The notes under the pieces were generated by a model. That model had not been told where the DNA came from. It did no database searches and saw only the letters and a program-made list of their open reading frames with translations. Shown piece by piece: positions 10,481 to 58,341 of a stretch of 64,000 nucleotides of DNA (its first letter is position 1; each line of letters starts with the position of its first letter). Origin of the DNA: Nitrospirota bacterium (GTDB taxonomy: Bacteria; Nitrospirota; 9FT-COMBO-42-15; HDB-SIOI813); the NCBI GenBank assembly GCA_020851375.1, contig JADZCV010000004.1, positions 1 through 64,000 of the forward strand, written 5' to 3'. The position numbers and the translations under genes are program-made.

Positions 10481-12749
10481 TTTCAAGGCGGCTGTTTGTG
10501 TGTCACTCATAGCCGGATTTATTGTTGTCAGCCCGGCTTTGGGCGACCGGGTCAGTGCTTCTGAATATACCGGGGATGTGCAAACGCCTGACACGGCGGT
10601 ATTGAAGAAGATTGACATTGTTGAGTTGCCGGCAAGTACGCAGATTCTGCTTGAAGCAGGAAATTCGTTAAAATATACATCCTTTACCCTGATGGACCCT
10701 CCAAGATTGGTTATAGATCTGCCAGGTGTTTCACTCGGTGAATTTACCAAACCTATTACAGTTGGCAAAGGGGCAGTTGTGGAGATCGTCCCGGTAGAGG
10801 CGGATCTGCCTTTAAGGGTTGCCAGATTAAGCATCAAGCTTGCAATTGACGTAAAGGATCCCCAGATATTCAGTAAATCAAATGTACTTATAATTGAAAT
10901 ACCATCAACAATGCCTGCCAGAGGCGCTGATAAGGCGACTGCCGTTCCTCCGCTTAATATGGTCAGGGAACTGATATTCAATGAGACCGGCGATAAGAGC
11001 AGCATCAGGATTGTTGCAGATAATGAAATCAATGCTGATGCTTTTATAGTCGAAGGAGACAAGCTTGTTGTTGACGTGAAAGATTCGGATAATTCGATAA
11101 AATCTTCCGAGAAGGTTGTGGAAAGCAGTCTTATTTCTAAAATCAGGATTGGAAATCATCCGGCGCCGTCCCATAAAGTCAGATTTGTTGCAGATCTCAA
11201 GAAGGCAGTCAAGTATGAAGTAAACAAACAGGGCAGGGAAATAACAATAGATGTTTATTCAAAAGGGGATAAGGGACGACCCAAGGTTCAGTTGGCATCA
11301 ATTGCTCCGGTACCTGTTGGCGGAGATGGTAATCCCGGAGATACTAATTCTGCTGTAAGCACCACAGAAAAAACTCCTGCTGCAAGTGAAAAAAGTGAAG
11401 AAGTTGTGGCACCGAAGACTGCCGTTCAACCTGTTGCTGAACAGCCGCAGCCGCCTAAAGAAAAAAAGAGTGCAACGCCTTCACAGACGGCAAATGTCAC
11501 ACCGGAGAAGAAGAATGGTCAGAACAGCGTCAAGAAGGTATCACTTGATTTTCAGGATGCTGATATCGTAAATGTGCTGAGACTTCTCGCTGAGGTCAGC
11601 AAACTCAATATGATAATCGGCGACAATGTGAAAGGTAAAATAACCATCAAGATGCTTGATGTGCCCTGGGACCAGGCCCTCAACATCATCCTGAAAATGA
11701 AAGGACTCGGCAAGATATACGAGAACAACGTGGTCAGGATTGATACACTGGTAAACATAGCTCAGCAACAGGAAGAGGAGGCACGGGCCAAGGATGCCAT
11801 GGTTAAGGCAGAGGACTTGTCTACAAAGATAATTCCTGTTAATTATGCGAAGGCAAAGGAGGTAGCCGACTCTATAAAGAAGACACTCAGTTCAAGGGGG
11901 GATATGACAATTGATGATCGCACCAATACCCTGATAGTTAAAGATGTGGCAGATAAACATGAAGAGATTGTCCAGCTTCTTAAAACACTTGACAGGCCGA
12001 CACCTCAGGTTTTGATCGAGGCAAGGATTGTGCAGGCAGACTCCAACTTTGCAAAAGATCTCGGGGTGCAATGGGGCGGCAATTATACCTCCAGCCCGGG
12101 TGATTACACTATGAGTGTCGTATCCGGCCCATCAGGGACAGTAGGCGCACCTACAACAGGTTTTGCCGTTAATCTGCCTGCAAGTGGTCTTGCGGGATCA
12201 AAAGGGAGCGTTGGATTTACAATAGGAAAGACTGTTGGAGATGCGTTTAACCTTGATCTCAGGCTGTCTGCCGGAGAGACTAAGGGATTGACAAAGATAC
12301 TGTCTGCTCCAAAGATTGCAACCCTTGACAACAGGGAAGCAATTATTCAACAGGGCGAATCCATTCCATACAAGACCTATTCTCAGGAAGGTACGAAGAC
12401 AGAGTTTATTGATGCGACCCTGACTCTTAAAGTAATACCAAAGGTTACGCCTGATGGCCATATATCAATGAATATTAAAATTACCAAGAACCGTCAGGGG
12501 TCAATAGTAGTTGAAGGTACCCCGAGCATCAACAAAAAAGAGGCGACAACAGAGGTGCTCGTAAGAGATGGAGAAACGACTGTAATAGGCGGCATCTACG
12601 AATTGTCTGATACGGATAACGAAAATATGATCCCGTGGATACACAAGGTGCCTGTGCTTGGATGGTTATTCAAGAATACATCGAAATCAAATATAAAGAG
12701 CGAATTACTAATCTTTATTACACCTAAGATCATACCTGTAACTTCATGA
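10467..12749 (+). CDS. pilQ: Type IV pilus secretin PilQ
   Basis: Outer-membrane secretin through which the pilus exits. I chose the ATG at 10467 because GAGGAGG at 10454-10460 lies 6 nt upstream and a signal peptide follows (AAVCVSLIAGFIVVSPALG). N-terminal AMIN domains (about residues 45-260, LVIDLPGV and LVVDVKDS) precede a low-complexity linker (about 290-360), an STN/N0 domain (LDFQDADIVNVLRLLAEV), an N1 domain (INYAKAKEV-type) and the secretin core with VLIEARIV and VPVLGWLFK. It is about 760 aa long and the last of the pil genes. Confidence 0.94.
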   Translation: MKIFNFKAAVCVSLIAGFIVVSPALGDRVSASEYTGDVQTPDTAVLKKIDIVELPASTQILLEAGNSLKYTSFTLMDPPRLVIDLPGVSLGEFTKPITVGKGAVVEIVPVEADLPLRVARLSIKLAIDVKDPQIFSKSNVLIIEIPSTMPARGADKATAVPPLNMVRELIFNETGDKSSIRIVADNEINADAFIVEGDKLVVDVKDSDNSIKSSEKVVESSLISKIRIGNHPAPSHKVRFVADLKKAVKYEVNKQGREITIDVYSKGDKGRPKVQLASIAPVPVGGDGNPGDTNSAVSTTEKTPAASEKSEEVVAPKTAVQPVAEQPQPPKEKKSATPSQTANVTPEKKNGQNSVKKVSLDFQDADIVNVLRLLAEVSKLNMIIGDNVKGKITIKMLDVPWDQALNIILKMKGLGKIYENNVVRIDTLVNIAQQQEEEARAKDAMVKAEDLSTKIIPVNYAKAKEVADSIKKTLSSRGDMTIDDRTNTLIVKDVADKHEEIVQLLKTLDRPTPQVLIEARIVQADSNFAKDLGVQWGGNYTSSPGDYTMSVVSGPSGTVGAPTTGFAVNLPASGLAGSKGSVGFTIGKTVGDAFNLDLRLSAGETKGLTKILSAPKIATLDNREAIIQQGESIPYKTYSQEGTKTEFIDATLTLKVIPKVTPDGHISMNIKITKNRQGSIVVEGTPSINKKEATTEVLVRDGETTVIGGIYELSDTDNENMIPWIHKVPVLGWLFKNTSKSNIKSELLIFITPKIIPVTS

Positions 12750-12756
12750 GGGTTTT

Positions 12757-13920
12757 ATGCTGCGCTTCCTGACAGCCGGGGAGTCTCATGGACAGCTTCT
12801 CATTGGAGTCATTGACGGCATCCCATCAGGGCTGGAACTTACCGCACAGGATATAAATCCGGATCTTGCCAGGCGCCAGATCGGCTATGGCCGCGGTGGC
12901 AGGATGCGGATTGAAAAAGATACAGCGGAGATTACCTGCGGCGTAAGATGGGGAAAGACCCTTGGAAGCCCGTTAGGCCTCTTAATCAGAAATAAAGACT
13001 GGGTAAATTGGACAGACAGGATGTCACCGGACCCTGCCCTGTCAGACTGCATCCCGCCTGAGACAAAACCAAGGCCAGGCCACGCAGACCTTTGCGGAAT
13101 AATAAAATATGCTCACAATGATGTAAGAAACGTGCTCGAGAGGGCGAGCGCAAGAGAGACAGCGGTGAGGGTTGCTCTGGGCGCTGTTGCAAAGACTTTT
13201 TTGCGTTCGTTTTCTGTAAATATTTTAAGTCATGTAACAGAGATAGGCGGTGTCCGAGTGAAGCCCCGCAAGATGTCACTTGATGTGCTTTCAGACAGGG
13301 CCGAGAAATCGGATTTGCGTTGTGCTGACAAAAAGTCCGAAGCATTGATGAAAAAGAAGATTGATGAGGCGAAGAGGAAGGGTGATACTGTAGGAGGTGT
13401 GTTCGAGGTAATTGCGGCCAATGTCCCGCCAGGATTGGGAAGCTACGCACAATGGGACAGGAGGATGAATGCAAGGCTTGCATTTGCCGTAATGAGCATA
13501 CAGGCCATAAAAGGTGTTGAGATCGGGATAGGTTTTGAGGCTGCAGGACGCTTTGGTTCTGACGTACACGATGCCATCTGCTATGACAGGAGTAAGCAAA
13601 AATTCTACAGAATGACAAACAGGGCTGGAGGGATTGAAGGGGGCATTACAAATGGTGAGAATATAATTGTGCGTGCGGCCATGAAGCCTATCGCAACGCT
13701 TTATTCCCCTATGGATTCAGTTGACATAAAGACCAGGAAACCGTTTAAGGCGACCGTTGAACGTTCTGATTACTGCGCAGTACCTGCCGCAAGCGTTGTA
13801 GGCGAGGCGATGGTGGCTGTTGAAATAGCCAATGCATTCCTTGAAAAATTTGGCGGTGATTCCATGGATGAAGTTCATCGGAATTATCAGGGTTACCTCG
13901 ATTATATCAGCAAGATATAA
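12757..13920 (+). CDS. aroC: Chorismate synthase
   Basis: Last shikimate-pathway step, EPSP to chorismate, requiring reduced FMN. The N-terminal signature GESHGQLLIGVIDGIPSG, the RRQIGYGRGGRM region, RPGHAD and the ARETAVRVA region are all present. The length of 387 aa is normal. The gene starts 7 nt after pilQ. aroK and aroB follow, but a 183-bp dispersed repeat unit separates aroC from aroK. Confidence 0.95.
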   Translation: MLRFLTAGESHGQLLIGVIDGIPSGLELTAQDINPDLARRQIGYGRGGRMRIEKDTAEITCGVRWGKTLGSPLGLLIRNKDWVNWTDRMSPDPALSDCIPPETKPRPGHADLCGIIKYAHNDVRNVLERASARETAVRVALGAVAKTFLRSFSVNILSHVTEIGGVRVKPRKMSLDVLSDRAEKSDLRCADKKSEALMKKKIDEAKRKGDTVGGVFEVIAANVPPGLGSYAQWDRRMNARLAFAVMSIQAIKGVEIGIGFEAAGRFGSDVHDAICYDRSKQKFYRMTNRAGGIEGGITNGENIIVRAAMKPIATLYSPMDSVDIKTRKPFKATVERSDYCAVPAASVVGEAMVAVEIANAFLEKFGGDSMDEVHRNYQGYLDYISKI

Positions 13921-42692: not shown

Positions 42693-44534
42693 ATGAGTAT
42701 CGTAGCAGATGAAAATACAAGGGTAGTTATACAGGGAGGGCCTGCAGGGGTAAATGCAGCCCGCCGCATGGCAGAGTTCTCCTATCTTATAAAACAGCCC
42801 GTTTGCGTCAAGGCCTTCGTATTTCCACCTGATGCAGGCAAGATGGCGGAGATACCCTACGGAAACGAGACAGTTGCAGTTCCGATATTTGCTTCAATGG
42901 CTGAAGCAACAAAGACATTTCCTGAAATAAACACGAGCCTTGTCTACATCGCCCCCAACAGGGCGCTTGAAGCCGCCCTTGAGGCCTTGAGAAGCGAGAA
43001 CATAAGAGTCGTTTCCATGATTACAGAGGGTGTCGCTGAAAAGGATGCGAAGCTGCTCATAAAAGAGGCAAAAAAACTCGGGAAGATTTTTAACGGTCCT
43101 TCGTCAATAGGGATATTTTCAGCAGGGAAATGCCGTCTTGGCGTCATAGGCGGCTCATATGAAAACCTGATGCTTTCAAAACTCAACAGGCCAGGCTCAT
43201 TTGGTGTAATAACCAAATCAGGAGGACTTTCAAATGAAATTATATGGATATGCAGCCAGTTTGCAAACGGCGTGACAACAGCGGTTGGGATCGGCGGCGA
43301 CTCATATCCAGGCACTGATTATGTCTCATATCTTGAGATGTTTGAGAAAGACCCGGACACAAAGGCTGTCGTCATAGTGGGTGAGATGGGCGGAAACCTC
43401 GAAGAGCGTGCAGCAGAGTGGTATGGCGCAAAGAAGCGCAGGATTAAATTGATAGCAGTTGTATCAGGCTTCTGCCAGGAGGTTCTGCCGAAAGGTATGA
43501 AGTTCGGCCACGCAGGCGCAAAGGAAGGATCGAGGGGAGAGGGGAGCGCAAGGGGAAAGTCAGATGCACTCAAGAGTGCCGGCGCCATCGTACCCCAGAC
43601 ATATGGCGCCCTCGGCCCTGCCATTAAAAAGGTATATGAAGAATTTGTTGCAAGCGGCGCAATAGCCCCGGTCAGGGAGACGCCGATAGATCAGCTGCGC
43701 AAATGGCCGAAGCCGATTGAAGAGGCTATAAAGACAGGAGAGGTCTCAGTTCAGCCGTTGTTTAAATCCACCATCTGCGACGACCGTGGTGACGAGCCGA
43801 TGTATTGCGGTTATCCTGCTTCAGACCTTATTAACAAGGGATACGATGTCCCTCACGTTATAGGACTGCTCTGGACAAAACGGCTTATCTCATCTGATGA
43901 GGCAGAATTGATCAGGAGAATCCTGATGCTCTCAGCAGACCATGGGCCATGCGTGAGCGGCGCGCTGGCTACCATACTTGCGGCTTGTGCAGACATCCCG
44001 ATGGCACAGGCAGTTGCTTCAGGCATCACCATGATTGGTCCCCGTTTCGGAGGCGCAGTAACAGATGCAGGCCGCTGGTTTAAATATGCCATTGACAATA
44101 ACATGAGCGTCGAGGAATTTTTGGCGCATATGAAGGCAAATGTGGGCCCGGTCCCTGGAATCGGCCACAGGGTAAAGAGCGTAAACAATCCTGACAAGAG
44201 GGTTAAAGAGCTTGTCAGCTTTGCAAAGAGCCTTGGCAGGCAGCTTCCGCACCTTGATTTTGCACTTGAGGTGGAGAAGATAACGACCGGCAAGAAAGAC
44301 AACCTTATCTTAAACGTGGACGGGACCATTGCAGTCGTCCTGTTAGACCTCGGATTCCCTGTTGAGAGTCTTAATGGATTCTTTATCCTTGCCCGCACTA
44401 TGGGGCTTATCGGCCACTGGATAGACCAGAAACAACAGGCTGCACGTCTAATCCGCCTCCATCCATACCTTGCCAGGTATGCGACAGAGCCGAAGAGAGA
44501 GGCGCCCAGGGCCGGGGAACCTGTTGAAGTATAA
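42693..44534 (+). CDS. aclA: ATP-citrate lyase, alpha subunit (AclA)
   Basis: Large catalytic subunit, 613 aa. The N-terminal CoA-ligase part carries the phosphohistidine in KFGHAGAKEGSRGEGS (about His270). The C-terminal citrate-synthase-like part has GPRFGGAVTDAGRWF, GPVPGIGHRVKS and the DFALEVEK region. The split gene pair is typical of Chlorobi, Nitrospirota and other rTCA autotrophs. AGGAGG precedes the ATG. Confidence 0.94.
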   Translation: MSIVADENTRVVIQGGPAGVNAARRMAEFSYLIKQPVCVKAFVFPPDAGKMAEIPYGNETVAVPIFASMAEATKTFPEINTSLVYIAPNRALEAALEALRSENIRVVSMITEGVAEKDAKLLIKEAKKLGKIFNGPSSIGIFSAGKCRLGVIGGSYENLMLSKLNRPGSFGVITKSGGLSNEIIWICSQFANGVTTAVGIGGDSYPGTDYVSYLEMFEKDPDTKAVVIVGEMGGNLEERAAEWYGAKKRRIKLIAVVSGFCQEVLPKGMKFGHAGAKEGSRGEGSARGKSDALKSAGAIVPQTYGALGPAIKKVYEEFVASGAIAPVRETPIDQLRKWPKPIEEAIKTGEVSVQPLFKSTICDDRGDEPMYCGYPASDLINKGYDVPHVIGLLWTKRLISSDEAELIRRILMLSADHGPCVSGALATILAACADIPMAQAVASGITMIGPRFGGAVTDAGRWFKYAIDNNMSVEEFLAHMKANVGPVPGIGHRVKSVNNPDKRVKELVSFAKSLGRQLPHLDFALEVEKITTGKKDNLILNVDGTIAVVLLDLGFPVESLNGFFILARTMGLIGHWIDQKQQAARLIRLHPYLARYATEPKREAPRAGEPVEV

Positions 44535-47380: not shown

Positions 47381-48700
47381 CTACGGTCTGTATTTCAGGA
47401 AGTAAATCTCACGCTCCCCGGCAATGCCCTCTTCCCAGGCCACGTACATGGACTTCTTTGAGTCCGTAGCTATGTAAGGTGATGACGAAGGGGCTGGGGT
47501 GTTCGACAGATTTTTAGGGACTGAGAAGTTTTGTCCCATGTCTTTTGAAACTGACAGAAAGATATCCTTGCTGCTGCCGTTATAGCCTTCCCACACAATG
47601 ACTATATTTGAGCCGGCTGCAGCCACCACAGGTGATGATGAGATGCCTGTACCGGACGATATCTGCAGTGGTTTGGTAAAATGGACTCCCCAGTCACCTG
47701 AGACTGCAAACCATACACTATCCTGGTCTGACCACACTGAATATATAGCGCCGTCTGGGGTTGCAGCAGCCTGAGGACAGGATGGAGAAACAGAGCCAGG
47801 CGAAATACTGTTTGGCATACCGAAAGAAGGTGGCAATATAGGGTTCCATGCACTGAATTGAATTGAGTTATCCCCCTTATATACCAGGTATGGTCCGCCG
47901 GCAACAGGCAGGATTACAGGACAGGAAGCATCAGTGGTTATTACAGAAACAGGTTCAGAAATCGCGATATCCCCATCCCAGTTTGTAAATTGTGATGAGA
48001 CTATTGTCCTGCTTCCGCCTTCCCCCTCAACCCAGACCGCCTTGGGAAAATTAAATGACCCTTCAACTGACAACAATGGTTCACTTGAATCTGAAGACAG
48101 TGTTTCCGACAGATTCAATGGACTCGAGAAAGTGCCTCCTTTATTAACAGAGTAGCTGTAGTATATCTCACCGCCGCCACTGTCGTTTCCTTTCCATGCT
48201 ATGCCAATATTACCGCTGCCATTCATGGCGAGGCGTGGTGAAGACACAGTTCCTGTTGTAACAGCCGACAGCAACTTGCATTGTGAGGGATCACTGTAAA
48301 ACATCACGCTGGATGTGCCGGGTGATTTCTCAATCCATGCGATGTAAAGGTCGCCGTTATCACCTGTCTTAAGGATGAAATCCCCTGAGTCCTCAGGATT
48401 TGTTTTGCACTGTGCCCAGCTTGCAATGTTTTCAGGAGGAAAGAAATTAGCCCCTGAATTGCTTGAATACTCAAGATATATCTCTTTTTTTGGGTTGCCT
48501 GTCACCTCTTCCCATGCTACATAAACATCCCCCCTGGAATTTGCAGAGATTACAGGTTTGGAAGAATCATTAGCGCTTTTTGATAAATTAACTACGGAGC
48601 TGCCTCCGTTATTGAGCCCACCGCCGCCGCCTCCGGCGCCACAACCGGCAATGGCAGATAAGGCCGCAGAAATCACAAGGATTGAAGTCATCAACTTCAT
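47381..48700 (-). CDS. Lipoprotein with sialidase/BNR-like beta-propeller
   Basis: The signal MKLMTSILVISAALSAIAGC is followed by a glycine run. The rest is repeated units of about 60-70 aa ending in VYVAWEE, LYIAWIE, IGIAWKG, IVIVWEG and MYVAWEE, each with a following strand such as EIYLEYSSNSG or DIFLSVSKDMGQNF. This is the BNR/sialidase-type propeller pattern, but no catalytic residues were identified. The frame stays open to 48976 through repeat sequence; I start at 48700 (48721 is possible). Confidence 0.78.
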   Translation of the reverse strand: MKLMTSILVISAALSAIAGCGAGGGGGGLNNGGSSVVNLSKSANDSSKPVISANSRGDVYVAWEEVTGNPKKEIYLEYSSNSGANFFPPENIASWAQCKTNPEDSGDFILKTGDNGDLYIAWIEKSPGTSSVMFYSDPSQCKLLSAVTTGTVSSPRLAMNGSGNIGIAWKGNDSGGGEIYYSYSVNKGGTFSSPLNLSETLSSDSSEPLLSVEGSFNFPKAVWVEGEGGSRTIVSSQFTNWDGDIAISEPVSVITTDASCPVILPVAGGPYLVYKGDNSIQFSAWNPILPPSFGMPNSISPGSVSPSCPQAAATPDGAIYSVWSDQDSVWFAVSGDWGVHFTKPLQISSGTGISSSPVVAAAGSNIVIVWEGYNGSSKDIFLSVSKDMGQNFSVPKNLSNTPAPSSSPYIATDSKKSMYVAWEEGIAGEREIYFLKYRP

Positions 48701-48735
48701 TACATTATTAAGTAGCAACATATATACCAAAGTCA

Positions 48736-49371
48736 GTTGAACCGTTATATGACTGGGCTCACAAGGAGTCATAAAAAACGTCATTCCCGCGAATGCGGGA
48801 ATCCAGACCGGTGGCCTGGTTCTGGATTCCCACTCCCCGCTTAACTCATGCGGGGACAGGTTGCGTGAGAATGACGGGTGAAAAATCCTGCGGGGACAGG
48901 TTACGGGGAATGACGGGTACTTTGGAGCATTTTCAGGTGAACCGTCATGAGCCCTTCGACTGTTCGACAAGCTCACAGCTCAGGGCTCACTAGGGTTCAT
49001 GAAAACGTCATTCCCGCGAAAGCGGGAATCCAGACCGTGGGCATGATTCTGGATTCCCACTTGCGTGGGAATGACGGGTGAAAAATCCTGCGGGGACAGG
49101 TTCTGTGGGAATAACGGGTACTTTGGAGCATTTTCAGGTGAACCGTCATGAGCCCTTCGACTGTTCGACAAGCTCACAGCTCAGGGCTCACCAGGGTTCA
49201 TAAAAAACGTCATTCCCGCGTAAGCGGGAATCCAGACCGGGGCCTGGTTCTGGATACCCACTCCCCGCTTAAATCATGCGGGGACAGGTTGCGTGGGAAT
49301 GACGGGGTGAAAAATCCTGCGGGGACAGGTTCCGTGGGAATGACGGGTACTTAGGAGTATTTTCGAGTGAG
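48736..49371 (+). repeat. Tandem array of three composite repeat units
   Basis: Three units with right-end junctions GGAGCATTTTCAGGTGA at 48924 and 49125 and GGAGTATTTTCGAGTGA at 49354, i.e. periods of about 201 and 229 bp. Each holds the TTCGACAAGCTCA block, the GTCATTCCCGCG palindrome and CGGGGACAGGTT blocks. No gene is encoded. The last junction is followed by a 16-codon frame that stops, so no gene uses it. Confidence 0.85.
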
Positions 49372-49795: not shown

Positions 49796-52700
49796 ATGAG
49801 ATACCGTGCAAATTATAGTAGAACATATAGCCCTCATCCTGGCAGCCTGAGAAAAAAATCAGCCCTGACATCTCTTCTTATCCTTACAGCCTTCATAACC
49901 GGTCTGATAACTATGACTGTTGCAACCGTATCCCCTGCCCATGCTGTAACAGGGTCAGAGGCAATAGTCACCGACCAGCTGGAATACATGATTGGCGATA
50001 CTGCGGCAATATCAGGCACCAATTTTGATCCTGGAGTTCCTGTGACAATTAACGTCGTCCGTGTTGATGGTATTATTGATACCGCTGCAGTTACAACTGA
50101 CGGCACCGGGGCATTTACATACAACTACTACCTAAATCCCAATGCAATACCGGACCCGGAACTGGCCTATTTCGGAACACTCACTGTGAACGTCCGTGAT
50201 GAGCTTGGAGCCATCCTCGCTTCTACAACATTTCTTGATAACCCTAATTATCTGCTCCAGGGCTGCTCCAGGGACAAGGGAGATTGTACTGACAGTTTGT
50301 CCGGCACCGGCTGGGCCGATGGAACGAGTCCTATGGACGGATGGACGAGCGGAAATGTCAAGGGATGGTACGAGCAGGAATATGTTCCCTATCGTTTGAG
50401 GATCAACCTTAGAAAAAGCTCAGATGGAAACAAGAATTATTACATCATGAATCAGCATGACAACCTAAGGAGCGGGACATACGGAGTAGATGGAATAGGA
50501 GACTTCTATGTAGGTTCAGGCCCTGATTCTTCTGTATATCCTGAAGGCAAGCTTACCAAGAACTGTACGGTACGGGCCGCAGGCACCGGTATTTTAGTTC
50601 CGACAACAGGCACGCCATGTTATGTTTCCGGTCCGATTTACTCAGGGATTGATGATGACGGTGATGGCTATACAGATGAAGAGGCAGTTGATGGGATTGA
50701 CAATGACGGAGACGGCAGGATAGATGAAGATGTGCAGAGTGGTTCTAATCCGGCCAGGCAGATACAGTTTGTTACAGCAATAAGGTTTGAATCTTCAGAG
50801 GCAGGCAGTTCCAGTAAGAGATGGGCGTTGTACTGGAAGGCACACCTTGCAACGGGATCCCACAACTTCCCAGGCTCATCACTTCATGCACAGACTACCG
50901 CAAGCGGGAACCAGAATGTACCTGTTTCAGACGTTCATGCAGCCCTTGCAGCAGACCTTTCCATTACCAAGACAGACTCTCCTGATCCGGTCAGCGCCGG
51001 CGGGACAATTACATATACAATAACAGTGACCAATAACGGGCCGGATTCGGCGACGAATATAACGGTGACAGATACGTTACCTGCCGGAGCATACCCGGTA
51101 ACCTTTGTAAGTGCAACCGGGACGAACTGGACATGCAGCTACAGTTCGGGTGTGGTGACCTGTAACCTTGATAACGACAGTTGCTCGGGGACAATACCGC
51201 CAATTTACATCACTGTAACTGCCCCGTCACCAGCATCTCAGACAACAATTACAAACAGTGCAACTGTGAATGGTTCTCCGAATGATCCAAATACAGGAAA
51301 CAATACTGCTTCAGCGACAACAACTGTGAATGCCGTACCGATTCCTGTAAGTGATTTGTCCATAACAAAAACGGATGCCCCGGACCCTGTCAATGCAGCA
51401 GGTGTCCTGGTTTACACCCTGAGTGTATACAATGCAGGACCAAGCAATGCAACGAATCTGACTGTGTCGGATACCCTGCCATCCGGTGTGACCTATGTAA
51501 GCTCCGGCGGCACCGGATGGACCTGCGGACATAGCAGCGGGGTTGTTACCTGCACCAGGTCAAACTTATCAAATGGTGCAACAGCGCCTTTGATTACGAT
51601 TACGGTTAATGCCCCTGTAGTCGGAGGAGTTATAAACAACACTGCCTCAGTTACCGGATATCAGAATGACCCCAATAGCGCCAACAACAGCACAACGATA
51701 CCAACAACAGTCATTGCAGTTGCCGATCTGTCAATTACAAAGACAGATTCACCTGATCCTGTTAATCAGGGTGCGCAAATAACGTATACACTTACTGTCA
51801 GCAATGCCGGACCAAGCTCAGCAAGCGGTATAGTAGTAACAGACGCCCTGCCTCTTGGAAGTACATTTGTCAGCGCCACAGGAAGCGGTTGGAGCTGCAG
51901 CTATAGCAGCGGTGTCGTGACATGTACTTTGGCAAGCCTCAATTCCGGCGCAACGGCTTCTGTCATCACTATCAAGATTAGTCCACCGAATCAGGCGGGA
52001 GATATCAGCAATACAGCGGGTGTATCGTCTACTGTGGCTGATCCAAACTCCTCCAACAATGCCGCTTCTGCAAACACTACGGTAAATCCTGCGGCAAATC
52101 TTTCCCTTGCCATGTCAGATTTTCCTGATCCTGATACAGCAGGACAGGATCTCACATATACCCTCGTGATCACAAATTTAGGCCCTAATACGGCGTATAA
52201 TGTAGTCTTGTCTGACTACCTGCCGCCGGGTGTAACATTTGTTTCAGCGAACTCCACTTCAGGCAGTTGTACTCCGTCAGGAAGCACCGTGACATGCAAT
52301 ATAAGCAGTATTCCCAATGGCGGGACTGTGACAGTCACAGTGGTTGTAATACCGAGTGAAGGGGGCTCACTTGGCAGTTCAGCCTCTGTTACAAGTACAA
52401 CCCACGATCCCGTTACCAGTAACAATAATAAGTCCGTAACGACAGGAGTTATCGCCGTATCAGATTTGTCAATTACAAAGACAGATGCACCGGACCCTGT
52501 AAGTATAAGCGGCACACTGGCCTATACCCTTAGTGTGAACAACAACGGGCCGAGTACAGCTTCCAATCTGATTGTTCAGGATACTCTGCCTGCCACGGTT
52601 GGTTATGTCAGCGCCAGTGGAACAGGATGGACATGCAACCAGAGTGGAGGGCTTGTTACATGTACCAGATCAAGCCTTGCAGTCGGCGCTGCACCTGATA

Positions 52701-55630
52701 TAACCATTACAGTAACAGGACCGTCAGCAGGCGGTTCCATAAGCAATACGGCGAGCGTCTCTTCAAGTGTGAATGATTCGAATTTGTCTAATAACAGTTC
52801 AACAGCGAGCACAAATGTAACGCCGGCGGTTAATCTCTCCATCACCCAGACAGATTCTTCTGATCCTGTAACAGCCGGAGGGACGTTCTCATATTTGATT
52901 ACAGTGGCCAACAGTGGTCCAAATTCAGCAACTGGTGTGACAGTGACAGATACCCTGCCGGCAACTGCGTCATTTGTCAGCGCCAGCGGCACAGGATGGA
53001 CATGTCCGGCCCCGGTTAGCGGCACACTTACATGTACCAGAGCCGGTCTCGGCATTGCGACAGCGCCGGTCATTACTGTTACACTGACAGCCCCCCCTGA
53101 AAGCGGCGCCATCAGCAATACGGCAATAGTATCCGCCAATGAAGGGGACCCTGTTCCTGCAGACAACAGCTCAACAGAGCCTACTGTCGTAACAGGTGTG
53201 TCGAATCTTTCCATTACCAAGACGGATTCTGCAGACCCTGTAACAGCAGGGGGGGCGTTATCATATACCATTACAGTGACCAACAGTGGTCCGAGCACAG
53301 CACACAACGTGACGGTAACGGATACACTGCCGTCTGGTGTTGGATATGTAAATGCAACCGGCACAGGGTGGACTTGCACGCCCGGGGTTGGAAGCGTATC
53401 ATGCACCCGTTCGAGCCTTGCGCCAGGGACAGCGCCTGTTATTACCATTTCAGTAACAGCGCCGTCAGAAGGCGGTTCTATCAATAATTCAGCGACAGTA
53501 TCTGCCAATGAAAGCGACCCTGTACCAGGCAACAACAACGCGTCACAGGGGACGACAATCAATGCCTCGGCAGACCTGGCTATCACAAAGGGTGATTCAC
53601 CTGATCCTGTGACTGCAGGCGGTACTCTTATATACACGCTTACAGTGACCAACAATGGTCCAAGTACTGCTACTGGTGTTACAGTGACGGATAACCTCCC
53701 GTCAGGTGTAACATATTCGGGTTACAGCGGGGCCGGCTGGAGTTGCCTGCATAGCTCTGGTGTTGTGACCTGCACCACTGCCTCTCTTGGAACAGGGATA
53801 GCGCCTGTTATTTCCATTACAACAACAGCTCCGTCAACAGCAGGAACCAAGACCAATAACGCGTCAGTAACCTCAGCAGTCAGCGATCCGGTAAGCGGCA
53901 ATAACTCCGCAAGCCAGACCACAACAATTAATCCGCCGTCAGGGGCAAATGCAGACCTCGCGATAACAAAGTCAGATTCGCCAGATCCTGTTTACGCAGG
54001 GGCTGCATTAACATATACACTTAATGTGACCAATAATGGTCCTGATACTGCGACAGGTGTCGTTGTAACGGACAGCCTGCCATCAGGCGCTGCATTTGTA
54101 AGCGCAGGCGGGACAGGATGGACATGTAATAATGTCAGCGGGGTTGTGAACTGTAACCTGTCAAGCATCTCCACAGGGCCGGCGCCTGCAATATCTATTA
54201 TACTGACTGTGCCGGCTGTATCGTCCCTGACCAACACGGCGATTGTATCGTCGAATGACGGAGATCCGAATATGGCGAATAACAGCAGCACAGCGACAAC
54301 AACAGTGACGCCGTCTGCAGATGTCTCTGTGACCAAGACAGATTCGCCGGACCCGGTGGTATTACCGGGTGATCCCCTTCACTATACCATTACTGTGACT
54401 AACAACGGTCCGAGTACGGCAACAGGCGTAACACTCACGGATGTGCTGTATTCGACCCTGACCTATCAAAATGCATCATCTACCCAGGGCTCATGTACAT
54501 ACTCAAGCGGCACTTTAACATGTAATATTGGCACCATGGCAAGCGGGGCTTCAGTAACTGTGACAGTAAATACGCTGACCACCCTGAAGGGCATGATTGA
54601 CAACACGGCCACAGTATCTGCCGCTCAGTTTGATCCGAACATGGCAAACAATACAGGCAATGAGACCACAAATGTTGGTGATATCTCAAGGCTTCTGAAC
54701 ATCTCTACAAGGGCCTGGGTCGGGACAGGAGAAGACAGGGAAATAGGAGGTTTTATAGTAGGCGGCAGCATACCCAAGAAGCTCCTTATAAGGGGACGCG
54801 GTCAGTCAATGAGCGGAGCCCCGTTTAATATAACAGGCACCCTTAACAATCCGTATCTGCGACTGTTCTCGTCTTCTGCAGGTGATTACATTGCGCAGAA
54901 TGACAACTGGGGTGATCAGAGCGACCCTCTGTGTTCAAACAAGGGTTTTGTCTGTGGTACACAGACAGAAATTGTGGCTACGGGCATTTCCCCCTGCGTA
55001 CCTAATCCGGGTCAGACATCTACACCTCCCGGGTGCTCGAATGAGTCTGCTATCATGATCACAGTACCCCCTGGTTCCTATTCTGCGGTGTTGAGCGGGG
55101 TAAGTAACGGCACAGGTGTAGGCCTGATCGAGGTGTTTGATATGGACGGGAGCACCATGCCCAAATTGGTCAATATATCCACCCGTGCGCAGGTGCTGAC
55201 AGGAGACAACAGGATGATAGGCGGCTTCATTATTGGCGCTGGAAATGGAAACAAGAAGATACTCCTCCGTGCACGCGGAGCCTCGATGGCCGGGGCCCCG
55301 TTTAATATAAGCGGTACGCTGTCTAATCCATACATAAGGCTGTTCTCATCCCCAAAAGGCGCATACATAGCCCAAAACGACAACTGGGGTGATCAGAGCG
55401 ATACCCTTTGTTCGACAAGTGGTTTCGTCTGTGGTAATCCGGCACAGATTACAGCTACAGGTATGGACCCATGTGTGCCGAATCCCGGCCAGACATCTGC
55501 ACCTCCAGGGTGTTCGAATGAGTCTGCGATCCTGATTACAGTGCCGCCTGGGAGTTATTCAGCGGTAGTAAGCGGGGTCAATAATGGTACGGGAGTGGGA
55601 CTGGTAGAGATATTTGAACTGGCGGAATAA
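49796..55630 (+). CDS. Giant secreted DUF11-repeat protein
   Basis: 1944 aa. The signal peptide ends near SPAHA. An Ig-like N-terminal region (about residues 55-145) precedes an Asp-rich calcium-binding-like stretch at about 285-315 (DDDGDGYTDEE, DNDGDGRIDED). Ten DUF11 repeats span about 385-1630, each opening like ADLSITKTDSPDPV. Two copies of a roughly 150-aa four-cysteine domain end the protein (STRA...IGGFI, AQNDNWGDQSD, CVPNPGQTS, ITVPPGSYSAV). No LPXTG or PEP-CTERM anchor is seen. It probably acts as an extracellular or surface fibre. The ATG follows GGGGGAGGG and lies 54 nt after the riboswitch terminator. Confidence 0.9.
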   Translation: MRYRANYSRTYSPHPGSLRKKSALTSLLILTAFITGLITMTVATVSPAHAVTGSEAIVTDQLEYMIGDTAAISGTNFDPGVPVTINVVRVDGIIDTAAVTTDGTGAFTYNYYLNPNAIPDPELAYFGTLTVNVRDELGAILASTTFLDNPNYLLQGCSRDKGDCTDSLSGTGWADGTSPMDGWTSGNVKGWYEQEYVPYRLRINLRKSSDGNKNYYIMNQHDNLRSGTYGVDGIGDFYVGSGPDSSVYPEGKLTKNCTVRAAGTGILVPTTGTPCYVSGPIYSGIDDDGDGYTDEEAVDGIDNDGDGRIDEDVQSGSNPARQIQFVTAIRFESSEAGSSSKRWALYWKAHLATGSHNFPGSSLHAQTTASGNQNVPVSDVHAALAADLSITKTDSPDPVSAGGTITYTITVTNNGPDSATNITVTDTLPAGAYPVTFVSATGTNWTCSYSSGVVTCNLDNDSCSGTIPPIYITVTAPSPASQTTITNSATVNGSPNDPNTGNNTASATTTVNAVPIPVSDLSITKTDAPDPVNAAGVLVYTLSVYNAGPSNATNLTVSDTLPSGVTYVSSGGTGWTCGHSSGVVTCTRSNLSNGATAPLITITVNAPVVGGVINNTASVTGYQNDPNSANNSTTIPTTVIAVADLSITKTDSPDPVNQGAQITYTLTVSNAGPSSASGIVVTDALPLGSTFVSATGSGWSCSYSSGVVTCTLASLNSGATASVITIKISPPNQAGDISNTAGVSSTVADPNSSNNAASANTTVNPAANLSLAMSDFPDPDTAGQDLTYTLVITNLGPNTAYNVVLSDYLPPGVTFVSANSTSGSCTPSGSTVTCNISSIPNGGTVTVTVVVIPSEGGSLGSSASVTSTTHDPVTSNNNKSVTTGVIAVSDLSITKTDAPDPVSISGTLAYTLSVNNNGPSTASNLIVQDTLPATVGYVSASGTGWTCNQSGGLVTCTRSSLAVGAAPDITITVTGPSAGGSISNTASVSSSVNDSNLSNNSSTASTNVTPAVNLSITQTDSSDPVTAGGTFSYLITVANSGPNSATGVTVTDTLPATASFVSASGTGWTCPAPVSGTLTCTRAGLGIATAPVITVTLTAPPESGAISNTAIVSANEGDPVPADNSSTEPTVVTGVSNLSITKTDSADPVTAGGALSYTITVTNSGPSTAHNVTVTDTLPSGVGYVNATGTGWTCTPGVGSVSCTRSSLAPGTAPVITISVTAPSEGGSINNSATVSANESDPVPGNNNASQGTTINASADLAITKGDSPDPVTAGGTLIYTLTVTNNGPSTATGVTVTDNLPSGVTYSGYSGAGWSCLHSSGVVTCTTASLGTGIAPVISITTTAPSTAGTKTNNASVTSAVSDPVSGNNSASQTTTINPPSGANADLAITKSDSPDPVYAGAALTYTLNVTNNGPDTATGVVVTDSLPSGAAFVSAGGTGWTCNNVSGVVNCNLSSISTGPAPAISIILTVPAVSSLTNTAIVSSNDGDPNMANNSSTATTTVTPSADVSVTKTDSPDPVVLPGDPLHYTITVTNNGPSTATGVTLTDVLYSTLTYQNASSTQGSCTYSSGTLTCNIGTMASGASVTVTVNTLTTLKGMIDNTATVSAAQFDPNMANNTGNETTNVGDISRLLNISTRAWVGTGEDREIGGFIVGGSIPKKLLIRGRGQSMSGAPFNITGTLNNPYLRLFSSSAGDYIAQNDNWGDQSDPLCSNKGFVCGTQTEIVATGISPCVPNPGQTSTPPGCSNESAIMITVPPGSYSAVLSGVSNGTGVGLIEVFDMDGSTMPKLVNISTRAQVLTGDNRMIGGFIIGAGNGNKKILLRARGASMAGAPFNISGTLSNPYIRLFSSPKGAYIAQNDNWGDQSDTLCSTSGFVCGNPAQITATGMDPCVPNPGQTSAPPGCSNESAILITVPPGSYSAVVSGVNNGTGVGLVEIFELAE

Positions 55631-55650
55631 TACAGCATGGATACAATATC

Positions 55651-58341
55651 ATGGACATCTCTCGAATTAAATGGGTATTAGCAGGCGTAGTCTCGTTTCT
55701 GCTTGCTGCGCCAGGGATTTCTTCGGCCTTTATAACTACCCACTATTCTGCAGATGTTGCTATGACAAGCGTCTCTTTTGAGGCAGAAGGGCGGATTGGG
55801 GATCTAAGTGGCACTCAGACTTATGAGCTTGACTTGGGTCCTTCAACTATCTCTCCGGTACAGACCGCCCAGTATAACTGGCCGAACGGGACACCGGTAC
55901 CATTTACATTATCATACGATAACGTCAGCAACCTTATCACTTTTACCGTAGGGTCCAATACCCTGACTTACCCCCCTGTTAAGATGCTAATTGATCTGTT
56001 TATTCGCACCCGTGCTGTAAACAGTGATACAGGCATCCTGGTTGATAATCTCGTATTAAACGGTATTCCTGTAGGTGATTTATCCAATGCCTATGTCCCG
56101 GGAACCAGCGGCATTGATATCCTGCAGATCAGCGGTGCGTCGCTATCTAATGGTTTTACCCTTACAGGTCAGGCAACGATGACATGGGTTGGATCGCCGC
56201 CCTACTGGAGTAAACTTGGTTTCCTCGTTAAGGTTTCACAGGGCAAGGCTGATCTGTCCCTTATCAAGACCGATTCGCCTGATCCTGTCAATGTCGGCCA
56301 GAGCCTTACATATATACTCAATATCACCAACAATGGCCCTACACAGGCCAATAACGTCATTGTTACGGATACCCTGCCTGCAGGTGTGACCTTTGTCTCT
56401 GCTGTGCCGACACAGGGCAGTTGCAGCGGCACAGGCACAGTGACCTGCAACCTTGGGAGTATTGCAAACGGCGCAAATGCAACAGTAACCATAGTGGTAA
56501 ACCCTACAATTACAGGTACCATCTATAATAGTGCAAGTGTGTCTTCTGCAGAATATGATTATGACAAATCCAACAATACAGCGTCGAAAGTTCCTACAAC
56601 GGTTAATCTACCCCCTGTAGTTCCGGTGGCAGATCTCTCTATTTCAAAAATAGATTCTCCTGACCCTGTGATGGTTGGAGACAGTCTTCTCTATACAATC
56701 ACAGTGACAAACAACGGCCCTGACGGCGCTACAGGAGTCAAAGTTACAGATACCCTGCCGGTTGGAGTAAGCATGTCATCAGCTATTCCGAGTCAGGGAA
56801 CTTGCAGCGGCACTGACACAGTAACATGCGACCTTGGAAGTCTTGGAAGTGGTGCGAGCGCAACTGTCCTGATAACAGTAACACCGTCATCAACAGGAAC
56901 CATTTATAACAGCGCAACTGTCACCGGAAGTGAAAATGACCCGGATATTTCCAATAATACGACGCAGCCGGTATCCACGACAATTAACAGCCTGCCTTCA
57001 GTTGATGCTGATCTCTCAATTACTAAGACAGATTCACCGGACCCTGTGCCGCTGGTTGGAGATAACCTGACTTACACGGTTACAGTAATCAATAATGGAC
57101 CGGCATCAGCTACAGGAGTATTGGTAACGGATTATCTGCCAACTTCGATTGGCTCCCTTCAGGTTGTGCCAATTGAATTGATCTCAGTTACCCCGAGTCA
57201 GGGGACCTGCAGCGGAACGTTTGTCTTAAGCTGTGATATCGGCACGCTGGCAGGCGGGGCTTCTGCAACTATTACTATAGTTACAAAGACCCTTTTTACC
57301 GGCATAATAAGCAACACTGCCACAGTGTCCGGCAATCAGAATGATCCTGATAATGTCAACAACAGCGCTGTCCAGAATACCAACATTGGGGATGTTTCGA
57401 GATTGATCAATATATCCACAAGGGCCTTCGTAGGTACAGTGGACGATAGGGCTATCGGGGGATTTATTGTCGGAGGGGAGCTTCCCAAGACCATTGTGGT
57501 CCGCGGACGTGGTCCCTCGATGAGTGGACCGCCTTTTAATATAACCGGCACGTTGTCTAATCCATATTTAAGGCTATACTCATCTTCAGATGGTGCCTAC
57601 ATAGCGCAGAATGATAACTGCGGAGACCAGAGTGATCCCCTGTGTGGGGACAGTGGATACGTTTGTGGGACGATTGCAGAGATCAAATTGTCAAATTTAG
57701 ACCCGTGTATGCCAAATCCGGGACAGACCTCTCCACCGCCCCGGTGTACCTATGAGTCCTGTATAATGATTACCGTTCCTCCAGGCAGTTATTCCACTGT
57801 ACTCAGCGGGGTAAGTAACGGCACAGGAGTAGGGCTTGCAGAGGTTTTTGATATTGACGGCGGCACAATGCCAAAGCTAGTCAATATATCCACACGTGCC
57901 CAGGTGTTGACAGGATTCAACAGGATGATAGGCGGTTTCATCGTCGGTGCAGGGTCCGGGGACAAAAAGATCCTTATCCGTGCGCGGGGTCCCTCTATGA
58001 GCGGAGCGCCGTTTAACATAAGCAGCACTTTATCAAATCCAAATATAAGGCTCTATTCTTCGGGGGCTGAGGCCTATATAGCCCAGAATGACAACTGGGG
58101 AGATCAGAGCGATACGCTCTGTTCAGGCAGCGGATTTGTCTGCGGCACAGCGGCAGATATCACGGCAACGGGAATGGACCCATGTGTCCCGAATCCTGGT
58201 GAGACATCCGCACCACCAGGCTGTACAGATGAGTCTGCAATCCTGATAACAGTCCCGCCAGGCGCTTATTCAGCCGTTGTAAGCGGAGTAAACGACGGGA
58301 CTGGTGTAGGATTGGTAGAAATATTTGACATAACTGAATAA
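55651..58341 (+). CDS. Secreted DUF11-repeat protein with choice-of-anchor-W-like N-terminal domain
   Basis: 896 aa. The signal peptide ends near ISSA. The N-terminal domain (about residues 25-195) contains FEAEGRIGDLSGTQTYELDL, QYNWPNGTPVPFTLSYD and LTGQATMTW, resembling proteins named choice-of-anchor W; that match is from memory. Three DUF11 repeats (about 199-578) follow, then two copies of the same four-cysteine C-terminal domain as the gene upstream. It starts 20 nt after the giant gene and probably shares its riboswitch-controlled transcript. Confidence 0.88.
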   Translation: MDISRIKWVLAGVVSFLLAAPGISSAFITTHYSADVAMTSVSFEAEGRIGDLSGTQTYELDLGPSTISPVQTAQYNWPNGTPVPFTLSYDNVSNLITFTVGSNTLTYPPVKMLIDLFIRTRAVNSDTGILVDNLVLNGIPVGDLSNAYVPGTSGIDILQISGASLSNGFTLTGQATMTWVGSPPYWSKLGFLVKVSQGKADLSLIKTDSPDPVNVGQSLTYILNITNNGPTQANNVIVTDTLPAGVTFVSAVPTQGSCSGTGTVTCNLGSIANGANATVTIVVNPTITGTIYNSASVSSAEYDYDKSNNTASKVPTTVNLPPVVPVADLSISKIDSPDPVMVGDSLLYTITVTNNGPDGATGVKVTDTLPVGVSMSSAIPSQGTCSGTDTVTCDLGSLGSGASATVLITVTPSSTGTIYNSATVTGSENDPDISNNTTQPVSTTINSLPSVDADLSITKTDSPDPVPLVGDNLTYTVTVINNGPASATGVLVTDYLPTSIGSLQVVPIELISVTPSQGTCSGTFVLSCDIGTLAGGASATITIVTKTLFTGIISNTATVSGNQNDPDNVNNSAVQNTNIGDVSRLINISTRAFVGTVDDRAIGGFIVGGELPKTIVVRGRGPSMSGPPFNITGTLSNPYLRLYSSSDGAYIAQNDNCGDQSDPLCGDSGYVCGTIAEIKLSNLDPCMPNPGQTSPPPRCTYESCIMITVPPGSYSTVLSGVSNGTGVGLAEVFDIDGGTMPKLVNISTRAQVLTGFNRMIGGFIVGAGSGDKKILIRARGPSMSGAPFNISSTLSNPNIRLYSSGAEAYIAQNDNWGDQSDTLCSGSGFVCGTAADITATGMDPCVPNPGETSAPPGCTDESAILITVPPGAYSAVVSGVNDGTGVGLVEIFDITE

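Follow-up and report, generated by a model that had tools for sequence, protein, structure and literature searches.

A paired four-cysteine domain at the C-termini of two DUF11 proteins of a Nitrospirota bacterium: a candidate surface-attachment module

The first 64,000 nucleotides of contig JADZCV010000004.1 (assembly GCA_020851375.1) of a Nitrospirota bacterium, referred to here as the window, encode two large proteins, P1 (49796..55630, forward strand, 1944 amino acids) and P2 (55651..58341, forward strand, 896 amino acids), both of which terminate in exactly two copies of a domain of about 155 residues with four conserved cysteines. With a probability of about 0.45, this tandem pair, probably stapled by disulfides, is read as a module for surface attachment. 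Sec would carry P1 and P2 out of the cytoplasm and their DUF11 repeats would form a rod, since passages of PMC12617251 present DUF11 (CLIPPER) as a stalk domain in which an isopeptide bond is often found; the terminal pair would fix this rod to the outer surface, by way of an outer-membrane component, lipopolysaccharide or exopolysaccharide, and so take the place of the exosortase-type or RTX tails carried by comparable proteins. The four-cysteine domain would thus be a folded, mostly beta C-terminal module of secreted stalk-like proteins, with the pair as its usual unit. These proteins are probably located at the surface, and attachment would account for the pair better than another role there.

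Both proteins start with a hydrophobic signal-like stretch, found by a simple pattern and hydropathy scan with no signal-peptide program. In P1 it is followed by about 330 residues that no Pfam or NCBIfam family matches over its cut-off, by ten DUF11 (CLIPPER) repeats (50954..54667, forward strand as for the other features of P1 and P2), each with a close cysteine pair, and by copy a (54689..55162), which carries the FDMDGSTMP linker leading to copy b (55163..55627). In P2 the order is a choice-of-anchor W domain (55696..56235; NF041928, 156 bits against a cut-off of 45), three DUF11 repeats (56251..57372), copy a (57400..57873) and copy b (57874..58338); in both proteins copy b runs up to the stop codon. 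Direct comparison shows no relationship between the N-terminal parts of the two proteins (best E 2.4). The genes lie head to tail, with 20 bases separating the P1 stop from the P2 start, and probably form one operon. A tandem of similar domains at the end of both DUF11 proteins had been described from the letters of the DNA only (hereafter the sequence-only reading); it now has exact coordinates, and pairwise identity is 66.2-83.9% over 154-158 residues (n = 4 copies). The interval given there, 54680-58341, does contain the copies and, wrongly, takes in the N-terminal and DUF11 parts of P2 as well. The absence of an LPXTG or PEP-CTERM signal, also stated there, is borne out by the same kind of simple pattern and hydropathy scan: no LPXTG (last 60 residues), lipobox or C-terminal hydrophobic helix is found in P1 or P2, and their tails have neither a basic cluster nor a PEP-CTERM-type hydrophobic helix.

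The likeness among the copies goes far beyond chance, since a profile of the four window copies picks up another three elsewhere in this genome, with E values of 1e-77 to 5e-84. Two of these form a pair that ends a MopE-repeat protein on contig 31 (C31; handles with G, C and L denote genomes, contigs and loci), and a nearby lone copy has no recognisable front. At the level of the phylum, 395 Nitrospirota genomes, drawn evenly from a larger group, were searched with two profiles, A1 and A2. In 21 aligned copies from seven Nitrospirota genomes, the cysteines C1, C2, C3 and C4 are kept in 20/20, 20/20, 20/20 and 19/19 of the copies that reach the respective column; all four window copies have them, in agreement with what had been noticed earlier, and the invariance holds although window and G156 copies share just 49-56% identity. 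C1 and C2 are spaced by six residues in most copies and by five in G361, and the C3-C4 loop is shorter in G156 and G369, with six residues, than in the window family and G361, with twelve; since these spacings fit such an arrangement, C1-C2 and C3-C4 would be two separate loop-closing disulfides. The motifs first quoted for the domain are present with small variation, an example being copy a of P2, which has six cysteines: the four, one gained from Trp at NDNW (NDNC) and one from Ala at ESA (ESC). The two extra cysteines could form a third disulfide, a hint that NDNW and ESA might lie near each other in the fold. Separately, the VTC/LTC region of every DUF11 repeat, ten in P1 and three in P2, holds a closely spaced cysteine pair; the stalk may itself be disulfide-stapled, besides any isopeptide bonds.

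The window copies appear to be old and under strong constraint, since nonsynonymous divergence (dN) between them is 0.11-0.25 while synonymous divergence (dS) lies near or beyond saturation, at 1.6-2.8 for four pairs and too high or otherwise unfit to be computed for the remaining two. A recent duplication of the window copies was rejected, third-position identity being only 37-48%. In a tree of the 21 copies, P1a, P2a and C31a cluster with a support of 0.93, and P1b, P2b, C31b and the lone C31 copy cluster with a weak support of 0.59; since first copies group together and second copies likewise, the pair seems to have been duplicated as one unit in this genome. In G004 and G361 the two copies within one protein are each other's closest relatives. 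The linker, from GLxEVF to STR, has 21-23 residues in the eight pairs caught by a pattern, which the G361 pair did not fit, and FDxD is found in seven of the eight. The DxDG(S/T)-like letters of the linker might conceivably mark a metal site. The invariant cysteines and this short, near-constant linker, together with the cysteine pairs in the DUF11 repeats, would also suit a structural end cap, which ends the fibre and shields its C-terminus from proteolysis with no specific binding. However, the strong constraint runs along the domain, beyond the cysteines, and the place that the pair has in common with sorting-type tails likewise suggests more than capping, so that a mere cap is considered unlikely.

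Different tails behind the same fronts are the strongest argument for anchoring. The choice-of-anchor W domain is found in 4 of the 395 Nitrospirota genomes; the three other proteins with this domain, two over the cut-off (G215, G353) and one below it (G137), end in VPLPGAVLLFGSGLLGL...RKK-like (VPLPGAVLLFGSGLLGLAGALRKKF-like) tails, assigned by eye to the exosortase type, and in P2 the same domain is followed by DUF11 repeats and the four-cysteine pair in place of such a tail. Similarly, a DUF7948-SBBP-DUF11 protein of the window's own genome (C26) ends in RTX repeats, and a protein with a similar front on C76 of G004 ends in the pair. Other DUF7948 proteins have hydrophobic tails (G361 C81, G001 C36), and two more (G118 C36, G004 C53) are truncated, at a contig end or where the stretch examined stops. 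An exchange of the same kind was noted for GlyGly-CTERM by Haft and Varghese, in a passage of PMC3237569. The module thus appears to sit where an anchor or an export signal can sit. The RTX-ending protein of the own genome (L038 5734-14109) has 2792 amino acids, with DUF7948, SBBP propeller, DUF11, M4 peptidase and MopE domains before the RTX end, so that a giant surface protein here includes a peptidase.

Exosortase is present in the own genome (C28, 219.9 bits), and no match to this enzyme was obtained in the carriers G004, G007, G361 and G369 (completeness 70, 95, 85 and 88%). The pair seems to be independent of exosortase, since these are four of the seven carriers (three of them less than 90% complete). 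As a separate observation, the four-cysteine gene of G004 adjoins a gene for a protein with a PEP-CTERM-like VPEPGTWLLLGSGI tail (L037 4180-4986), and despite this protein no exosortase was found in this 70% complete genome. A wider claim, that the pair is a transferable C-terminal surface-sorting tag, with a receptor to be found, and represents an unrecognised route beside exosortase and RTX in the same cell, is regarded as doubtful.

The terminal position extends to the other host proteins. In nine of twelve host open reading frames (ORFs) only 0-1 residues separate the end of the last copy from the stop codon, two of these ORFs being incomplete genes, one in G009 with its front in other frames with stops and one the lone C31 copy; as to the other three, two are cut by contig ends and one ends at 3 residues in a degenerate tail. 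The partners of the domain are DUF11, MopE, DUF7948 with an SBBP propeller, InlB-like repeats, fn3 and choice-of-anchor W, and FG-GAP-like and HExxH-bearing parts are read by eye. A hydrophobic signal-like stretch lies within the first 80-95 residues in 9 of 10 host ORFs (hydropathy scan, no signal-peptide program), and in the tenth, from G007, the front seems to lie in another frame; a mainly cytoplasmic occurrence, named in the sequence-only reading as contrary to it, did not appear. That reading had left secretion, anchoring and ligand binding side by side. The terminal position, the exchange with exosortase-type and RTX tails and the varied N-terminal partners now make C-terminal anchoring or export the likelier direction.

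Within this direction, the pair might be the export signal, cleaved or not, of a dedicated outer-membrane secretion apparatus of a type IX-like kind, as its C-terminal place on varied proteins with signal-like N-termini and a predicted beta domain ending in a strand (low confidence) would allow. Conversely, no type IX C-terminal or sorting-domain family is listed in the Pfam and NCBIfam scans, the presence of such a model in the libraries being unchecked; SprA gave no match in any of 14 genomes, the control genomes being silent as well, and PorU was not searched for. Anchoring is preferred to such a machine, which is judged improbable, because each genome has just one to four of these proteins and the loci have no candidate receptor gene in common.

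Structure prediction, proposed with the sequence-only reading, did yield two models of the domain, with predicted local distance difference test (pLDDT) values of 50.9 and 50.2 and predicted template-modelling scores (pTM) of 0.53 and 0.50, that is, of low confidence and too weak to decide. They depict a beta domain ending in a strand, and on this basis the fold may be mostly beta, perhaps a beta-sandwich. Foldseek returned no match for the first model at E 0.001; the best VIA-align Z was 8.4 for the first model and 5.5 for the second, and the rows, mostly MSCRAMM, pilin and other immunoglobulin (Ig)-like domains, are regarded as background, given a pLDDT of about 50. A type IX C-terminal domain is absent among the 50 rows of either VIA-align list, which excludes nothing.

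The best fold neighbours of the first model are MSCRAMM ligand-binding domains (Z 8.4, 3.1 Å over 111 residues), a result that would favour the pair as the distal adhesive or ligand-binding head of a fibrillar adhesin, with another part, for example the N-terminal one, holding the cell. Proteins with DUF11 stalks are typically adhesins according to passages of PMC12617251 and PMC9210967, and gene decay and patchy distribution fit adhesin-like turnover. However, the fold matches are at background for models of this confidence, the terminal pair is constant while the N-terminal parts vary, and a shared binding head would be less expected on propellers, stalks and a HExxH-bearing protein (by eye). 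The adhesive head is a possibility to be kept in mind, if a less probable one; anchoring is preferred to ligand binding because the tail is constant, the fronts vary and the tail stands where sorting tails stand.

Several points weigh against surface attachment. The C-terminal position would equally fit an adhesive tip or a cap; attachment is argued from comparison, and the models are too weak to decide the fold. Only 8 of the 395 genomes match, the same eight with profiles A1 and A2, and one of them, G118, holds a broken remnant, which leaves seven carriers (in the family-level search 4 of 10 genomes match). The own genome has a low number of such proteins, three plus the lone copy, and the one to four per genome are few against a median of eight instances for PEP-CTERM, the figure in a passage of PMC1569441; in the relatives G009 and G118 genes with the domain have decayed. 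A low number per genome, a patchy spread and gene decay characterise accessory adhesins more than they do sorting systems. No recurring candidate receptor gene was found beside the domain at the eight loci compared. The tail-swap argument is weakened by the DUF7948 proteins of G361 C1, G118 C20 and G009 C31, which have no recognisable tail; exosortase was not searched for in G215, G353 and G137, whose tails were typed by eye, and no PEP-CTERM cargo turned up when the window and four more stretches of the own genome, together a minority of it, were scanned by pattern. As to the disulfides, VKOR was detected in a single genome of 14, other than the own one, DsbA and DsbB not having been searched for.

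Outside the genome sample, no relative was confirmed in viral contigs and none was found in plasmids at E 1e-3; a laxer plasmid row (27 query residues, 52%) and a laxer phage row (51 residues, 45%) are taken as chance. The scan of genome contigs gave a single relative, L033, apparently identical with contig C47 of G007. A tail of similar sequence that lacks the cysteines is presumably common in Verrucomicrobia and Acidobacteria; a 132-residue consensus matched nothing in the plasmid, viral contig and phage collections, which cover these two groups poorly.

Comparison of the neighbourhoods led to the rejection of a dedicated neighbour gene: across the eight loci, sharing concerns only surface proteins, gltX with a lipoprotein gene, and genes resembling ATP-binding cassette (ABC) ATPases. 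DUF7948/SBBP surface proteins recur beside domain genes at three loci (L034, L033, L041), and the ABC ATPase resemblance is between L035 and window neighbours. gltX and the lipoprotein gene adjoin four-cysteine genes in the window and in G004 (L037) only; since these two genes are common to both, the window and G004 present one chromosomal site with same-tailed proteins of different fronts. On contig 31 (L034 1-15984), a cut-off DUF7948 gene, the lone four-cysteine copy and a short ORF (12722-13036) with a linker-like piece lie among PIN-like genes (by eye), a region read as a decaying surface-gene island.

A foreign composition of P1 and P2 was rejected, their GC content (0.504 and 0.488) being inside the range of eleven other window genes (0.443-0.516). 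Upstream of P1, positions 48906-49370 hold a cluster of interspersed repeats with CGTCATTCCCGCG(A/T)AAGCGGGAATCCAGA palindromes and a 100-nucleotide direct repeat, 97% identical, in copies 201 nucleotides apart. The listed ORF of 531 amino acids at 47381-48976 (reverse strand) seems to start within repeat DNA (PVWIPAFAGMT); the true gene is probably shorter, with a later start, and encodes a lipoprotein-like product that is BNR-like by eye. Further away, the ORF of 613 amino acids at 42693-44534 resembles the ATP-citrate lyase large subunit, by eye only; if it is this enzyme, it would hint at a reductive tricarboxylic acid cycle.

For many surface stalk proteins no anchor can be recognised. 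Passages of PMC12617251 and PMC9210967 present DUF11 as a stalk domain and suggest that anchors are still unknown; the latter indicates that an anchor is recognised in only around half of the positive training proteins, and that many anchors may be unknown. A conserved tail standing where sorting tails stand is a direct, cloneable anchor candidate. Should the pair turn out to be adhesive or a cap, a family model would still make it possible to annotate the ends of several large proteins that at present are known only from their DUF11, MopE or propeller repeats.

No domain of known unrelated function, the other finding that would have told against the sequence-only reading, matches over a curated cut-off. 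No Pfam model exceeds its cut-off on the four-cysteine domain; an SBDS_C row (15.7 of 27 bits), a type VI secretion PAAR model on a G156 pair (19.7 of 124 bits, E 0.0007) and other single sub-cut-off rows from the family scans were dropped. One sequence search of the PDB gave nothing and another a single row at E 1.7, the best PHROGs hit has E 0.17, and a non-exhaustive literature search found no description of the domain. The closest relation among listed families is FDP_fam (NF038127, the DVUA0089 family of NCBIfam), which matches the middle of the domain and part of its last third (NDN and PPGxY strands) and leaves the first third uncovered. Its cut-off of 29 bits is exceeded by the P1 pair (37.2) and the C31 pair (34.1), and not by the P2 pair (24.4) or the G156 pairs (24.9 and 21.7); single window copies score 21.2, 21.4, 17.2 and none, and the best stretches fall within about positions 48-111 of the 150-position profile, most of which is not aligned.

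Among known systems, fibrillar adhesins resemble P1 and P2 in the signal-like N-terminus, the repeated stalk domains (ten and three DUF11) and the length of the protein; no known adhesive domain is found over cut-off in P1 or P2 outside DUF11 and choice-of-anchor W, the N-terminal 330 or so residues of P1 being unmatched. MSCRAMM/CnaA-like Ig domains are all-beta and weakly resemble the low-confidence model, with Z falling from 8.4 to 5.5, and the PDB offers no sequence match for the four-cysteine domain. The C-terminal domains of type IX secretion are folded beta domains at the extreme C-terminus of varied secreted proteins, in which the four-cysteine domain would be like them; unlike them, it is paired and has four cysteines. 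PEP-CTERM/exosortase tails, like the pair, are C-terminal on diverse signal-peptide proteins, but they consist of a short motif, a transmembrane helix and a basic cluster, as a passage of PMC1569441 has it, whereas the four-cysteine domain has about 155 residues and is soluble and mostly paired. It is filed as an unnamed variety of C-terminal module of surface proteins.

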